From Bacteroidales bacterium (GTDB lineage Bacteria; Bacteroidota; Bacteroidia; Bacteroidales; VadinHA17): 64,000 nt of DNA. A program made the position numbers and the translations under genes. Under the pieces are notes generated by a model. It searched no databases, was not told where the DNA came from, and worked only from the letters and a program-made list of their open reading frames with translations. The DNA is taken from positions 1-64,000 of the forward strand of contig PLLO01000013.1 in NCBI GenBank assembly GCA_003142255.1, given 5' to 3'. The stretch's first letter is position 1; every line of letters begins with the position of its first letter. Below, in pieces: positions 41,678 to 49,025 of the stretch.

Positions 41678-42820
41678 GTGAACAATTACCGGCACAAAAC
41701 CAACTGGATGCTTTTTCTTTTCCTGTTCGCAATATTGACCGGACTTGGATCTCTGATATACACACGATTTCTTGTGAATATCCTCAAAAATGAGGAGAGA
41801 ATTAAGGTTGAACAATGGGCAGAGGCTACAAGGCTCATTTCCATGCCCGACTCGAGCCATACCGAATTCCTCTCATCAATAATTGAAAATAACATCAGCG
41901 TTCCGGTAATCCTTACCGATGAGGCCGAAACGATTATCGGATCAAAGAATTTCGATGAGAACAGAATGCGCGATCCGGGTTTTCTCTATTCTCAGCTCAG
42001 GAAGATAAAGAATAAACCTATTGTAATTGATCTCGGAAACGGACACAGATCGATGATATATTACAAGGATAGTTTAATTCTTATTCAGTTGAATTATTAT
42101 CCATATGTACAGCTTGCCATAATACTTCTTTTTATACTGGTGGCTTATCTCGCCTTCAACTCTTCAAGGAAAGCTGAAGAGAACCAGGTGTGGGTAAGCA
42201 TGTCGAAGGAGACAGCCCACCAGCTTGGGACACCAACATCATCCCTGGCCGGATGGGTTGAGATGCTTTATGACAAATATCCTGAAGTATCGCTTACAAA
42301 TGAAATTGCCCTGGATGTTGCAAGGCTTGAAAAGATAACGGAACGGTTCTCAAGGATTGGTGCAAAACCAGCTCTGGCAAAGGATAATATTATTGCAATC
42401 ATTTCCCGGACAATCGATTACCTCAAGACAAGATCCTCTTCAAAAGTAAAATTCATTCCCCTGTTTGATCCTTCCGAAATAGTCTTTGTTCCGCTTAATG
42501 CACCTCTTTTTGAATGGGTGATCGAGAATGTATCAAAGAACGCCATTGATGCAATGGAGGGAAGCGGAGAGATCAGGTTCAATATTTCCCTTACAGATAA
42601 AACAATTCTGCTCGATATAACCGATACCGGGAAGGGAATACCGGGGAATGCATTTAAAAAGATATTCAACCCCGGATATACGACGAAACAGCGGGGCTGG
42701 GGATTGGGTCTTTCTCTTGCAAAAAGGATCATTGAAGAGTTCCACAACGGCAAGATTTATGTCAGAAATTCAGAGGTCGGTAAAGGCACTTGCATCAGGA
42801 TCGTGATGAACAGGGAATAA
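41678..42820 (+). CDS. Sensor histidine kinase
   Basis: The predicted protein has 380 residues and begins with GTG (MNNYRHKTNW). It has two membrane helices (about 12-32 and 145-165) around a 110-residue extracytoplasmic domain. An HisKA-like helix with SKETAHQLGTPTSSLAG (phospho-acceptor His about 186) and a HATPase domain with N-box VIENVSKNAIDAM, DTGKGIPG and RGWGLGLSLAKRI follow. All catalytic motifs are intact. No response regulator lies next to it. It follows the AsmA-like gene by 28 bases. Confidence 0.9.
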   Translation: MNNYRHKTNWMLFLFLFAILTGLGSLIYTRFLVNILKNEERIKVEQWAEATRLISMPDSSHTEFLSSIIENNISVPVILTDEAETIIGSKNFDENRMRDPGFLYSQLRKIKNKPIVIDLGNGHRSMIYYKDSLILIQLNYYPYVQLAIILLFILVAYLAFNSSRKAEENQVWVSMSKETAHQLGTPTSSLAGWVEMLYDKYPEVSLTNEIALDVARLEKITERFSRIGAKPALAKDNIIAIISRTIDYLKTRSSSKVKFIPLFDPSEIVFVPLNAPLFEWVIENVSKNAIDAMEGSGEIRFNISLTDKTILLDITDTGKGIPGNAFKKIFNPGYTTKQRGWGLGLSLAKRIIEEFHNGKIYVRNSEVGKGTCIRIVMNRE

Positions 42821-42857: not shown

Positions 42858-44114
42858 ATGAACAGGAAGGATATTGAGATAATGGCTCCGGCCGGGTCGT
42901 ACGAATCACTTTCGGCAGCGATCCAGGGAGGTGCCGATTCTATATATTTCGGCGCTGAGCAGCTGAACATGAGAGCCGGCTCATCAAACAATTTTACGCT
43001 CGACGACCTTCGCAAAATTGCAGTCATCTGCAGGGATAAAGGCCTGAAAAGCTACCTGACAGCAAACGTTCCGGTTTATGACAATGAGATCGGACAGATG
43101 CATAGTATCATCGATGCAGCTGCCGAAAACAGAATAAATGCCATAATTGCATCAGACCTTTCCGCAATAGAATATGCTTTCAGCAAAGGAGTTGAGGTTC
43201 ATATTTCGACACAGCTTAATATTTCAAATTCAGAGGCACTTAAATTCTATTCAAAGTGGGCTGATGTTGCCGTTCTGGCCAGAGAGCTTAACCTTGAACA
43301 GGTAAAATACATTCACGAATCAATCATAAGCCAGGATATCAGGGGACCAAAAGGAGAACCCGTCAGGATCGAGATGTTTGTTCATGGAGCACTTTGCATG
43401 GCTATCTCGGGCAAATGTTACCTAAGCCTTCACGAAAACAACACTTCGGCAAACCGCGGAAACTGTTACCAGACATGCCGGAAGTCGTACCTGGTAACTG
43501 AAAAGGAATCGGGGTACCAGCTCGAAATTGACAATGAATTCATAATGTCTCCCAAAGATCTTTGCACAATAGGATTTGTCGATAAAATGATCGATGCAGG
43601 AGTAAGGATATTCAAGATTGAAGGAAGGGCAAGATCGGCGGAATATGTGAAGATTGTCACCTCATGTTATGATGAGGCTGTAAAGGCTGTTTTTGACGGC
43701 ACATACACGGAAGAGAAAATTACAGAATGGCGTAATAGATTATCATCGGTATTCAACAGGGGCTTCTGGGATGGCTATTACCTTGGACAGAAGCTCGGGG
43801 AATGGAATACCAGATATGGTTCAAGCGCTACCAAAAGGAAGGTTTACCTTGGAAAGATCACCAATTATTTCACAAAACTGAATGTTGCCGAGATAAAGGT
43901 GGAGAACGGTGATCTCTGCAAGGGTGATACTATACTGATAATGGGTCCCACAACCGGGGTAATAGAATACAATGTCGGAGAAATACGCGTTGATCTGCAG
44001 CAGACTGATACTGCTAAAAAGGGAGAGCTCTGTTCAATCAAAATTGATGATTACCTCCGAAGGTCCGACAAGGTATATAAGTGGGTCAGTTCCGATGAGC
44101 TTAAGAAACAGTGA
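42858..44114 (+). CDS. trhP: U32 family protein, tRNA uridine-34 hydroxylation (TrhP-like)
   Basis: The 418 residues have the U32 hallmarks MAPAGSYESLSAAIQGGADSIYFG, FVHGALCMAISGKCYLS and ANRGNCYQTCRKSY (the cysteine cluster). The length fits the TrhP/YegQ branch, which with prephenate-derived chemistry makes 5-hydroxyuridine at tRNA position 34; RlhA (23S rRNA) is the alternative. It converges on mnmH, another U34-modifying enzyme, with a 14-base overlap at the 3' ends. Confidence 0.85.
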   Translation: MNRKDIEIMAPAGSYESLSAAIQGGADSIYFGAEQLNMRAGSSNNFTLDDLRKIAVICRDKGLKSYLTANVPVYDNEIGQMHSIIDAAAENRINAIIASDLSAIEYAFSKGVEVHISTQLNISNSEALKFYSKWADVAVLARELNLEQVKYIHESIISQDIRGPKGEPVRIEMFVHGALCMAISGKCYLSLHENNTSANRGNCYQTCRKSYLVTEKESGYQLEIDNEFIMSPKDLCTIGFVDKMIDAGVRIFKIEGRARSAEYVKIVTSCYDEAVKAVFDGTYTEEKITEWRNRLSSVFNRGFWDGYYLGQKLGEWNTRYGSSATKRKVYLGKITNYFTKLNVAEIKVENGDLCKGDTILIMGPTTGVIEYNVGEIRVDLQQTDTAKKGELCSIKIDDYLRRSDKVYKWVSSDELKKQ

Positions 44115-45168
44115 ATAAGCCTGTTCGCCAGTCTATTTTACCTGCCGCTTCAATCACTCTTAAAGTGTTGCTTTCAATATCATCAGTATCGGTTTTAATA
44201 TAGATGATCTTATCCTGCGGCTTTCTTCCGATGCTGAACATATACGTTTTATCGTAATACTTCAGGGTTATCCCTATTGCTTTTGCGAAATCGCCTTTTT
44301 CAACAGCGCTGATGACATCCCTGGCATTATCTCCCCCGAGCCTCTTACTGATCCTGTTTATTGATTCTATAAGTAGTTCAGGCGGGAAGGCTGAATATTC
44401 TTCAATAAGTCTCGGCAATCTTGTGTCAATGTCCATCACAAGAACAATTGTGGGAGCGGTTTGCATGTTAAGGTAAAACTCATCGGTCATGAATACTGTG
44501 CCGATGTTCCTGCTTTCATCCTCAAGCCATAGTGGCAGATTATCATCAATTTTCTTCCATTGATCGAAAAGGAGGTTGGCAAAATGTTCCGTTGACGGCT
44601 GGGGAAGCTGGCCAAGTGCTCCGAAAGCAGAACCCTTGTGGTTAGAAATGTCTTCAAGATCGATAACCTGTTGCCCGAGGCTCCTAATGGAACGAAGGAT
44701 ATGTGTTTTGCTGCTGCCGGTCATCCCCCCAAGGATAATCGTTTTTCGTTTTTTTGAAAGAGATCCAAGGACATGATGCCTGTAGGATTTATAGCCGCCG
44801 TCAAGCACCTCCGTATCCAGCCCACCCAGTGAAAAAAGCCATGCCATTGCCTCCGATCTTATTCCTCCCCGCCAGCAATGAACAAGTATTCTGCCCTCTG
44901 AGGCAATTTTAAGGGCCTCCCTGAGCTTTTCATGCATTAAGGGACCCGTTAGTTCCAGTCCGGTAAGTATCGCTTTGTTTCTGCCCTCTTTCTTGTATTT
45001 TATCCCGACTGCTTCCCGTTCCTTGTCATTGAAAAGAGGGACATTAAAGGCGCCGGGGATATGTCCTGCTGCAAATTCTGAAGGGGATCTCACATCGGCT
45101 ATTGGAATTGTCTCAGCCATTCTTAGAAACTCCGCTATCAACGTTTTTTTCAAAACCGGGAATGTCAT
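44101..45168 (-). CDS. mnmH: tRNA 2-selenouridine/geranyl-2-thiouridine synthase
   Basis: The protein is 355 residues from the chosen ATG at 45168. It has a rhodanese domain (IPIADVRSPSEFAAGHIPGAFNVPL, catalytic Cys in HCWRGGIRSEAM) and a P-loop domain with GGMTGSSKTHIL. MnmH replaces sulfur by selenium in wobble uridines of some tRNAs. A longer frame to 45237 would overlap the upstream hybrid kinase and adds residues with no family match. SelD is not in the window, so selenium use cannot be confirmed. Confidence 0.9.
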   Translation of the reverse strand: MTFPVLKKTLIAEFLRMAETIPIADVRSPSEFAAGHIPGAFNVPLFNDKEREAVGIKYKKEGRNKAILTGLELTGPLMHEKLREALKIASEGRILVHCWRGGIRSEAMAWLFSLGGLDTEVLDGGYKSYRHHVLGSLSKKRKTIILGGMTGSSKTHILRSIRSLGQQVIDLEDISNHKGSAFGALGQLPQPSTEHFANLLFDQWKKIDDNLPLWLEDESRNIGTVFMTDEFYLNMQTAPTIVLVMDIDTRLPRLIEEYSAFPPELLIESINRISKRLGGDNARDVISAVEKGDFAKAIGITLKYYDKTYMFSIGRKPQDKIIYIKTDTDDIESNTLRVIEAAGKIDWRTGLFTVS

Positions 45169-45211
45169 CTGCCTGTTTGATTTACTACCCTGTGAAATGA
45201 TTCTGCATATG

Positions 45212-48034
45212 TCAGCTCTTGCTGAAATGTTTTGCAAAAAGATTCTTCAGATCGTCTACCATTACCGGTTTGGGAATAAATTCCCTGATACCGGATAGTT
45301 CTGCCTTTCTTCTTGCATCAGGCATATTATCAGCAGTAAATGCCACGATGAGCACTGATTTGTCAATATTGAGTATTTTTCTCGCTGAATCATATCCATT
45401 CATTTCAGGCATAATGAGATCCATGAAGATGAGGTCATATTTTTTGCTTTTCGCCTGCTGGTACCCTGCATAGCCGTCATCAGCAACATCGTAAGAATAA
45501 CCAAGTGTTTTAAGCATGGTGCAGATCACCTTCTGGTTCATTTTGTTGTCCTCGACAACCAGGATCTGAATATTATCCCTGATATTGTTTACGTCTATCG
45601 TTCCGGAAAGGGTTTCTATATATGGGAAGCTGTCATGGACCGCATTAACAAGCTCATTGTTATCAAATGGCTTGACAAGATAATGGTCAACCCCCATGGT
45701 AATGCATTTCATATAATTACCTTTCTGGTCGTTTGAGCTGATCATGAATATTATCAGACTGCGGGAGAGACTGTTTTCCCAGATAGCCCTGGCAGCTTCA
45801 AATCCGTTAAATATCTCGTCATCGACAATTACAACAAGATTGTACTTGTCCTGGCCTGAGTTGAGGTTCGCCTTTATCTGTCCGACCGTCGATTTCTGGT
45901 AAGTTGTGACTGTTGCATTAAGCCCCAGCCGGTGCAGTGGGTTAAGTATTTCTTCATCGCGGTTTTTGGACCCGGTTATTATAAGGGTTTTAATTTTGTC
46001 TAGGGAAGCAATGCTTGACTGGTCAAGGTTCTTTACAATCTTATCATTTGAATATGCGGTTATGGTAAAGGTGATCTTTGTTCCAGTGTTGCCGGAAAGG
46101 CCCGAAGGACTTTCAGCAGTGAGCTCTCCTCCCATCATCTCTACCAGCTGCCTGGCAAGAACGGTCCCGAAGCCAGATTCATCGTTTCCCCACGATGCTT
46201 TGGATTCGACATTGACATAGTCGCCGAATATCTTCTTGAAGCTTGCCTTGTCAAAGCCGGTACCGGTATCGAACAGCTCAAAACCAAGAACAAGGATCCC
46301 TTTTTTATTGCTTTTCAGCGTACAGTTCAGGAGTATTTCGCCTTTGGTGGTATTTGATGCAGAATGGTTTATAAGGTTGGTAAGCACTTGCCTCAGTCTG
46401 AAGGGGTCGGCAACTATGCTATGGGGAATATTCTTGTCGATATTATAATTAAAAACAACATTGTTATCGGAAATATGTGTCCTGGCCAGACCGGAGCAGT
46501 AATTTATTTCCTCCCGCAGGTTGAACGGGACCTCATCAAGAATCATTTTCCCGGTTTCAATCTTGGAAAAATCGAGGATGTCGTTTATGATGTTAAGGAG
46601 AACTTCGGTGGAGCGGCGAAGAAGTTTTATAATCTCCTTCACATCATCCGGTGCGTCCTGCCTGTTAAGGATATCTGTCATGCCGATTATCCCGTTAAGC
46701 GGTGTTCTGATCTCGTAGCTCATACGTGCAAGAAACTCTGACTTGGCCTCATTTGCCTTTGCTTCCTGCTTGCGTGCCGATTCAAGCATCGTAACATCTA
46801 TCAGGATCTCCATAGTTGCCTCTTCGCCCAGAAAAACAACAGGTATACTGTTCCTGTAGAGTACGATTTCGCCTATTTCTTTTTTGATTATGACAAACTG
46901 ATCGGGGTTGAATATCCCTCCGAGGTTCTTTGAGAAATAATCATGGCTTTCGGGATATGAGGATTCAGGGAATATCTTTCCTTTCATTTCCGCCTCAGCG
47001 GGATAGGAGTACTGTACAGCGGCTATTTTATTAGCTTTTATTATTTCCCCGTTCTTGTTGTGAATTATCACACCCACCGGCATCTCTTCAATAAGCATGA
47101 AAAGCATCTTCTCAGATTCGCTCAGCCGCTTCATCTCCGATTTTTGCTTCCTCAGATACTTCATGAACATCGAGATAATGAGCTGCATTAGAAGAAGAGT
47201 CACGGTCACAATTATTAAAGAATTCCTGATAATGTATTTCTGGAAAAGCTCAGTGGGGGTCGTGAATACAAGGCAGAGGTTCCTCTGCAAAAGCTGAACA
47301 GGATAAAAAGATGAGATAACTTCCTTTGATTTGCCCTTTATTTCAGCCCTGTGAATGATATTATTTATTGTCTGGTTATCAATTGACGTGGCAATTGTCT
47401 TTATTCTTGAATAGGTTATTTTGCTGACGCTGTTACTGAATATTATATCTCCGGAATCGCTTACAACCCATTGCCACTGATAATCTTTAAGATTGAATTC
47501 GGAAAAGGTCTTAGTGAAGTAGTTCTGGTAATCAACCGTAACAACAATATCGCCGACAGCAACATTATCTTCATAGATCGGAAGGTAATAATTGAATTTC
47601 TTGTTTTCTTCAATCAGCATGTCCCGGTCAATAATATCACCTTGTACATGAAGCACATATGGTGGTTGCTCCAGCCAGTCTCCAACTTCATCTTTCTTTA
47701 AGGTAAATTCATTCCGGTTATGGTCGAAAATCTTGATACCGGTCACAAAATCCGTATATTTTGAATAAAATAATTTCATCTTACCAGTGATCTGGTATCG
47801 TTTATTCTTATCATTGAAAAAAGAGTCGAGATCGCCGGAAAGAATTATTTGATTCAGGTCGTTTGTAAAATAATTATTTGTGCTATCCACGGAAAGGCCG
47901 ACAATTTGAACCTGCCGGTCGAGCAGGGCAGTAATATAATTTATCTGTTTGTCATACAGGCCTCTATAATAGTAAAAATTTGCCAGCAATATCAGTACGA
48001 AGGCTGTATAAACAAATATCAGGAGTTTTTTCAT
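45212..48034 (-). CDS. Degenerate hybrid histidine kinase (pseudo-kinase) with two receivers
   Basis: 940 residues. A membrane helix (about 5-22), an extracytoplasmic sensor domain (about 30-270), a second helix (about 275-295), a PAS domain (about 312-420), HisKA, HATPase and two receivers follow in order. The H-box reads [11 protein letters not shown]: Tyr440 replaces the phospho-acceptor His. The N-box reads [10 protein letters not shown]: His557 replaces the Mg-binding Asn. The G2 box is ESGFGTVLA instead of GTGLGLA. Receiver 1 lacks the acidic pair (LIITGSKN). Receiver 2 is intact ([22 protein letters not shown]). So canonical autophosphorylation is unlikely, yet the last receiver could still take phosphate from another kinase. 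Confidence 0.85.
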
Positions 48035-48098: not shown

Positions 48099-49025
48099 TC
48101 ATCGATATTTACGGTTATTATCGTTCAGTATATTCAAATAACTCCGGTATCTGAGGGGATCTATTGCCCCGGTTTCCACTGCGTCCCTGACAGCACAACC
48201 GGGTTCATCGAAATGAAGACAATTATAAAACCGGCACTCTTTTGAGGTTCTGAAAATTTCAGGGAAAAAATGATAAATCTCGTTCTTCTCCATATCTATA
48301 ACTCCAAATCCCCTGATCCCGGGAGAATCGATCACAAATCCGCCAAAGGGCATTGGGTGCATCTCCGGGAAGGTTGTGACATGCTTTCCCTGTTTATGAT
48401 AATCAGAAATTGCTTCTGTTTTCAGATTAAGCGCGGGGTTTAATGCATTTATGAGGGTTGTCTTGCCAACACCGGAATTGCCGGCAAGAAGGTTGATCTT
48501 CCCCTTCATCCTGGTCTTCAGAATTTCGAGACCCTGATTTTTGATGATTGAGAGGCGCAGGCATTCATATCCGATCCTGGTATAAAGCGACTCCAGGTAT
48601 TCCATCCTTTTTGTCTCTGCTTCCCCGTAAAGATCTGTTTTGTTGATTATTATAGTTGCCGGGACTCTATATGCCTCAGCCGTCATCAGAAATCTGTCAA
48701 TAAACTCCACGAGGGTTTCAGGAAGAATTATTGTTATCATCAGGAAAAGGTGGTCGACATTGGCCGCAATGATCTGGAACTCCTTTGAAAGGTTTGTGGC
48801 TTTCCTCAGGATATAGTTCCTGCGATCGAGAAGCTCGGTAATAATACCGGTATTACTGTCAGGTTCATAATCAAATTTAACATTATCTCCAACCGCAATG
48901 GGGTTGGTTGTCCTCAGGTTTTTCTTCCTGAATTTTCCCCTGATAACGCAATCAGTAATTTTCCCGTCGCCATGCAACACCCTGTAGTGAGACCCGGTTG
49001 ACTTTATGACAATTCCCTGTTCCAA
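48099..49025 (-). CDS. rsgA: Ribosome small-subunit GTPase RsgA
   Basis: The 308 residues are a circularly permuted GTPase: an OB-fold N-terminus, NKTD (about 130), GNSGVGKTTLIN (about 182), DSPGIRGFG (about 228), then the zinc knuckle with CRFYNC, HFDEPGC. It helps mature the 30S subunit. A GTG/other start is not needed; the ATG gives the usual N-terminus. Confidence 0.94.
   Translation of the reverse strand: MEQGIVIKSTGSHYRVLHGDGKITDCVIRGKFRKKNLRTTNPIAVGDNVKFDYEPDSNTGIITELLDRRNYILRKATNLSKEFQIIAANVDHLFLMITIILPETLVEFIDRFLMTAEAYRVPATIIINKTDLYGEAETKRMEYLESLYTRIGYECLRLSIIKNQGLEILKTRMKGKINLLAGNSGVGKTTLINALNPALNLKTEAISDYHKQGKHVTTFPEMHPMPFGGFVIDSPGIRGFGVIDMEKNEIYHFFPEIFRTSKECRFYNCLHFDEPGCAVRDAVETGAIDPLRYRSYLNILNDNNRKYR

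Follow-up and report, generated by a model that had tools for sequence, protein, structure and literature searches.

The gene at positions 45212..48034 on the minus strand of the window (the 64,000-nucleotide stretch of Bacteroidales DNA analysed here) encodes a hybrid histidine kinase homologue of 940 amino acids, plus the stop codon, in which the phosphoacceptor histidine is replaced by tyrosine. Comparison with its orthologues lends good support to the view that this protein is a fixed pseudokinase descended from a canonical hybrid kinase of the dCache-PAS-DHp-CA-REC1-REC2 architecture. It now probably operates as a signal regulator rather than as an enzyme. Furthermore, the histidine appears to have been lost several separate times within this one orthologous family. 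Such recurrent inactivation in a single, mostly synteny-linked orthologous gene is the new point of this analysis and deserves follow-up. Only a few bacterial pseudo-histidine-kinases, for instance, DivL and RetS, have been well studied, and judging by titles and the opening lines of abstracts, we recognized no paper on this family in the open-licence literature on pseudo-histidine-kinases, histidine-less hybrid kinases and their Bacteroidales or Bacteroidetes cases. Since the family includes canonical and dead orthologues as well as half-dead ones, most of them in one genomic neighbourhood, it can be asked directly on which part of a hybrid kinase selection still acts after the loss of catalysis, and whether signalling is commonly rewired by way of such losses.

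Domain organization and catalytic residues

By descent, the window protein is a hybrid histidine kinase, with HisKA, HATPase_c and a C-terminal receiver joined in one chain. The HisKA (DHp) domain (residues 430-495; 46550..46747, minus strand, as are all domains below) and the HATPase_c (CA) domain (residues 543-659; 46058..46408) score 68.6 and 47.8 bits, respectively, both above the Pfam cut-offs, and Response_reg is matched twice. The two receivers are REC1 (residues 683-803; 45626..45988), delimited from the alignment, and REC2 (residues 824-931; 45242..45565), supported by Pfam and the alignment. The N-terminal sensor (residues 22-275; 47210..47971) has no Pfam match, but its AlphaFold2 model (mean pLDDT 86.3) predicts a dCache-like fold; the best Foldseek matches are mostly dCache sensors of chemoreceptors and kinases (best E-value 5.8e-9), among them TlpC and TlpA, and the TM-scores lie at roughly 0.4-0.7. 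That the PAS domain looks intact, as originally predicted, is only weakly supported: the PAS-like stretch (residues 314-367; 46934..47095) scores 17 bits, below the cut-off of 22.6 for PF00989. The model of the DHp-CA-REC1-REC2 part (pLDDT 78.8, pTM 0.60) is less sure than that of the sensor. By E-value, its top PDB match is ShkA, yet with a TM-score of only 0.35-0.39 and an rmsd of 19.5; GacS is second, RetS third and DivL nineteenth. At this moderate confidence, the matches to GacS, RetS and DivL agree with the conserved fold that had been proposed.

Neither the phosphoacceptor histidine nor the complete N, G1 and G2 boxes of an active kinase are found. The H-box site is occupied by Tyr440 (codon TAC, 46715..46717, or 46717-46715 in the reading direction), followed by a retained Glu441-x-x-Thr444. 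His557 (46364..46366) stands where, in our reading and in agreement with the alignment, the N-box should have its Mg-binding Asn; the G2 box, NDESGFGT, is degraded and G1 is partly kept, with Asp589 and Gly591 in place. REC1 has Thr687-Gly688 at the site of the acidic pair, although Asp738 and Lys788 are retained, and the REC2 motif is full (Glu828, Asp829, Asp872, Thr900 and Lys922). What the original prediction noted on the H-, N- and G2-boxes and on the last receiver is confirmed in the open reading frame, the assignment of His557 on the assumption just stated. In the same genome, PF00512 matches 36 places, and the other 35, all with sequences fetched, have His, so that its loss here exceeds chance among PF00512 matches, a count that leaves out kinases unmatched by this profile, such as the one at 41678-42820.

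Distribution and gene neighbourhood

In an even sample of 393 genomes of the order, 39 contain a match at E-values up to 1e-90, mostly near full length. In a phylum sample of 345 genomes, the kinship of most of which is not listed, only the genome of the window itself matched (1/345, E up to 1e-85), and a single scan of named genomes yielded full-length relatives only under Bacteroidales, Bacteroidia, Bacteroidetes or Bacteroidota titles. The named records with the gene (L031-L075) bear titles of these same four kinds and share 47-92% identity. Within the limits of the phylum sample and this one scan, no occurrence of the gene beyond the order was observed.

The kinase gene is preceded at a distance of 64 bases by rsgA in the same orientation (48099..49025, minus; TIGR00157, 199.2 bits against a cut-off of 100) and followed on the same strand by mnmH (44101..45237, minus; TIGR03167, 322 bits against 219.75), both identified with NCBIfam profiles; as listed, with a TTG start, the mnmH frame overlaps the kinase gene by 26 bases. 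When one locus is counted per distinct kinase end, 141 distinct loci result, of which 122 have rsgA, in the same orientation, as the next upstream gene and 90 have mnmH as the next downstream gene. The loci without upstream rsgA comprise eight contig ends and 11 with another gene, including all four of family f98; the adjacency is also absent in f86 and in two of the four f43 loci. Hence, rsgA synteny supports orthology for most of them but not for all.

The conserved surroundings of the kinase (42858-45237 and 48099-49025) include translation and tRNA genes, namely, rsgA, mnmH and a gene for a TrhP-like U32 protein, the match of which falls under the cut-off of the model. A second sensor kinase lies nearby at 41678-42820 on the plus strand (HATPase_c, 75.2 bits; motif AHQLGTP). 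Its similarity to the window kinase is weak and limited to the ATPase domain, and a relative was found in the fetched flanks of 98 of the 141 distinct loci.

Conservation and selection in the genus and family

Orthologues are present in 57 of the 62 genomes of the genus and in 110 of the 117 genomes of the family, spanning 15 of 15 genera. In the genus, the phosphoacceptor site is Tyr in 54 and Phe in two of the 56 readable sequences; the gene of genome G007 is split over two frames and unreadable at this site. The Mg-binding Asn of the N-box is found in only 8 of 57 sequences and G2 is likewise degraded, whereas Glu441 (56/56), Thr444 (56/57) and the REC2 residues Asp829, Asp872 and Lys922 (each 56/56) are kept. 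At the family level, His is absent from every readable sequence in seven of the 15 genera (g1, g3, g6, g10, g11, g13 and g14, of which g6, g10, g11 and g13 rest on one sequence each), mixed in g9 and g12, and kept in g2, g4, g5, g7, g8 and g15. In the Tyr/Phe clade formed by g1, g13 and g14, the neighbouring positions are nearly invariant (Ser439 and Glu441, 78/78; Thr444, 78/79; Pro445, 79/79), whereas in g3 and g6, Thr444 is replaced by Ile, Val or Leu. In g8 and g15, His is kept but the CA domain has decayed, with degraded N-box and G2.

Pairwise whole-gene dN/dS is 0.05-0.24 in 16 non-His pairs (one of them with a sequence unreadable at the phosphoacceptor site) and 0.06-0.43 in seven His pairs, as estimated by a simple pairwise method from these 23 close pairs, some with saturated dS. 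These low values argue for a fixed pseudokinase rather than a decaying gene. That the tyrosine reflects a sequencing or assembly error, or a gene on its way to decay, has a negligible probability: the contigs are drafts and the G007 gene is broken, but Tyr or Phe occupies the site in every readable sequence of the genus, orthologues with the same residue have intact frames, and dN/dS is well below 1 in the listed pairs. Accordingly, both sequencing error and a pseudogene were rejected. Orthologues with His, which according to the original prediction would imply such an error or a recent mutation, are indeed found in different genera and families, where they represent an old state. Taken together, the genus-wide Tyr/Phe, the decayed ATP site and the low dN/dS strongly support the pseudokinase reading put forward earlier.

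Among the domains, DHp is the least diverged in the genus (mean pairwise identity 72%; CA and the sensor have 56% and 54%, respectively). The ratio of CA divergence to sensor divergence is 0.95 in the genus versus 0.56 in 24 His sequences of other families, a contrast that would fit, if weakly given the different depth of the two sets, relaxed catalysis with docking retained. The relaxation of constraint on CA is nevertheless not clear-cut, because the ratio in the His-bearing group of g7 and g2 (0.91) nearly equals that of the genus.

Apparent repeated loss of the phosphoacceptor histidine

The complete alignment contains 146 sequences, 143 of which are readable at the phosphoacceptor site: 50 have His and 93 do not, the latter carrying Tyr (58), Phe (23), Gln (7), Arg (4) or Lys (1). 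Thus, the histidine at this position, previously called universal, is not so in this orthologous family. The His-bearing orthologues of other families (f8, f38, f43, f44, f65, f98 and others) resemble the window protein in being full-length homologues mostly beside rsgA, but differ in retaining His. Of the 48 readable His sequences, 40 also have all six ATP-site residues checked (Asn557, Asp589, Gly591, Gly593, Gly621 and Gly623); the 40 come from f1, f7, f8, f30, f38, f43, f44, f65, f83, f86, f98 and f118. All six are found in only 7 of 91 non-His sequences, four from g3 and the others from g6, g9 and g11, and none from the genus of the window. The first Asn of the N-box is changed in these seven, which may therefore lack a functional ATP site all the same. 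Glu441 and Thr444 are kept in 93 and 80 of 93 non-His sequences, respectively, and a complete REC2 is found in all 89 non-His sequences scored and in 45 of 46 His sequences. The absence of the acidic pair from REC1, correctly observed in the window protein, had been counted among the losses of the kinase. This interpretation was rejected: both acids are found in none of 90 non-His and none of 48 His sequences (a single acid in 8 and 14, respectively), and the REC1 defect therefore appears ancestral.

Several His-bearing sequences stand out on their own. L223 (f7), with an odd H-box, INHEISANSD, is the only readable sequence in which the phosphorylatable Asp of REC2 is lost (Asn). In L194, L198 and L213 (f39), His-Asp-x-x-Asn (SHDIRNPLNG) replaces His-Glu-x-x-Thr and no G2 box is recognizable, making f39 a further half-dead lineage.

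We mapped the His and non-His states on two trees, both obtained by quick searches with SH-aLRT support only. The first (73 sequences; sensor, PAS and REC2 columns, H-box columns excluded), in which L217 and L223 were flagged as long branches, requires five unpolarised changes, and the second (75 sequences; cytoplasmic columns without H-box and CA) six, also unpolarised. We read the direction as loss, because a functional kinase has His at this site and His predominates in the sequences from outside the family. With regain disallowed, we read seven losses on the second tree: in f15, g3+g6, g9, g10, g11, g12 and the clade of g1, g13 and g14. The order of decay seems to have differed as well. 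On the branch leading to the genus of the window, the ATP site may have decayed before His, because g8 and g15 keep His alongside degraded N-box and G2; in g3, g6, g9 and g11, His presumably went first, since the seven non-His sequences from these genera still have the six ATP-site residues.

These patterns raise a broader, more doubtful possibility, namely, that the selected function of this rsgA-linked Bacteroidales family was never mainly autophosphorylation. Its conserved activity would instead be phosphate capture by REC2 combined with docking through DHp, and the kinase chemistry would have been shed at least five to six times, through varying substitutions and not always in the same order (the ATP site decaying first in g8 and g15, His going first in g3/g6, g9 and g11). 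If so, one orthologous gene anchored by synteny would offer a natural series of conversions from kinase to pseudokinase.

Possible roles of the pseudokinase

The scaffold, heterodimer partner and phosphate sink suggested originally would all fit the data. By analogy, we favour, if only tentatively, a partner role like that of RetS from Pseudomonas aeruginosa. The dimeric DHp would dock another hybrid kinase or a receiver, Asp872 of REC2 would be the acceptor for phosphate donated by an HPt protein or a partner kinase, Glu441-x-x-Thr444 could dephosphorylate a partner receiver, and the dCache sensor would gate docking, such that a periplasmic ligand would lower or redirect the signal of the other kinase. 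RetS differs from the window protein in its sensor domain and in keeping its His, in place of which the window protein has Tyr440. The two share the hybrid kinase layout, the degenerate ATPase, a phosphorylatable REC2, the H-box Thr and a kinase-core fold match, and RetS seems to be the best functional parallel. In the RetS study (PMC5992135), the HATPase is degenerate and lacks G-boxes, phosphoryl groups pass from GacS onto Asp858 of REC2, GacS autophosphorylation is inhibited, and Thr428 is needed for transmitter-phosphatase activity. From the H-box spacing, we infer that Thr428 answers to Thr444. The RetS-type combination of a degenerate ATPase and C-terminal receivers, with REC2 phosphorylatable, is recognizable here from residues only, and the retention of His is seen in g8 and g15, which resemble RetS in pairing it with a decayed CA. 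A phosphatase role cannot be general, given the replacement of Thr444 in g3 and g6. The adjacent rsgA and mnmH, neither a kinase nor a regulator gene, also speak against the RetS-like reading, as do the 5 of 110 kinase-bearing family genomes without an HPt match.

The single HPt match in the genome of the window (L224:1099-1845, contig C2) is a standalone protein encoded beside a STAS-domain protein, a possible phosphate donor or acceptor. It lends some appeal to the idea, on balance unlikely, that the protein is simply a node in which REC2, phosphorylated by this HPt or by another kinase, serves as output or buffer of a phosphorelay and DHp as a dimer stalk. Counted by eye from genome lists, HPt matches occur in 39 of 39 kinase-bearing genomes of the order sample versus 216 of 354 others, a comparison that ignores kinship and genome size; moreover, the HPt could serve other hybrid kinases. 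Within the family, no link is apparent (105 of 110 genomes with the kinase gene versus 6 of 7 without), and the HPt is therefore no evidence for a specific partner. In addition, the H-box surface is conserved beyond the needs of a plain stalk.

That same conservation around the H-box, together with the presence of DivL among the PDB matches of the core, would suit a DivL-like reverse sensor. In this scenario, the dead core of DHp and CA would take a phosphorylated receiver, either the REC2 of the protein itself or a separate regulator, as its input and inform a partner kinase while performing no chemistry itself. We consider this somewhat unlikely, since a pure reverse sensor would not need the REC2 that is complete in all 89 non-His sequences scored. 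DivL is not known to have C-terminal receivers or a dCache sensor; the window protein has two receivers and shares with DivL a kinase-fold DHp-CA core in which Tyr replaces His. DivL is also from another phylum (Caulobacter crescentus) and has other partners. In the DivL study (PMC4211667), Tyr550 occupies the same place and goes together with lost kinase and phosphatase activity and retained binding of a receiver, DivK~P; reintroduction of His failed to re-establish autonomous autokinase activity and disturbed growth in the cell. The weak ATP binding of DivL compares with a decayed ATP site here. ShkA, the top fold match and also from C. crescentus, shares with the window protein the layout of a hybrid kinase with a central pseudo-receiver, in our case REC1, but is an active kinase stimulated by c-di-GMP (PMC7010744).

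Some kinase activity might persist, either with another phosphoacceptor or in a heterodimer using the CA of its partner, with REC2 fed from the His of the latter. Asp589 and Gly591 are invariant in 92 of 92 non-His sequences, so that residual nucleotide binding is possible, and seven non-His sequences keep the whole set of six ATP-site residues. None of the seven belongs to the genus of the window, where the Mg-binding Asn is rare and G2 degraded, making this alternative improbable. A second full-length copy that could act as dimer partner was not found in the same genome at E-values up to 1e-15; among the paralogues, the one with the longest match (C11, L270) shares 27% identity over residues 3-652 and has a canonical-looking core. 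Phosphorylation of Tyr440 itself, as in a tyrosine autokinase, is very improbable: Tyr is the commonest replacement (58/93), but the ATP site has decayed, and no autokinase activity of DivL is reported (PMC4211667). The occurrence of Phe, Gln, Arg and Lys at the same site led us to reject it as a general role.

Tyr in place of His was also encountered in a different hybrid kinase, from Flavobacteriales and Flavobacteriaceae metagenome-assembled genomes (L102 and L107). The CA boxes and receiver motifs of this kinase are apparently intact, and it represents a separate further case.
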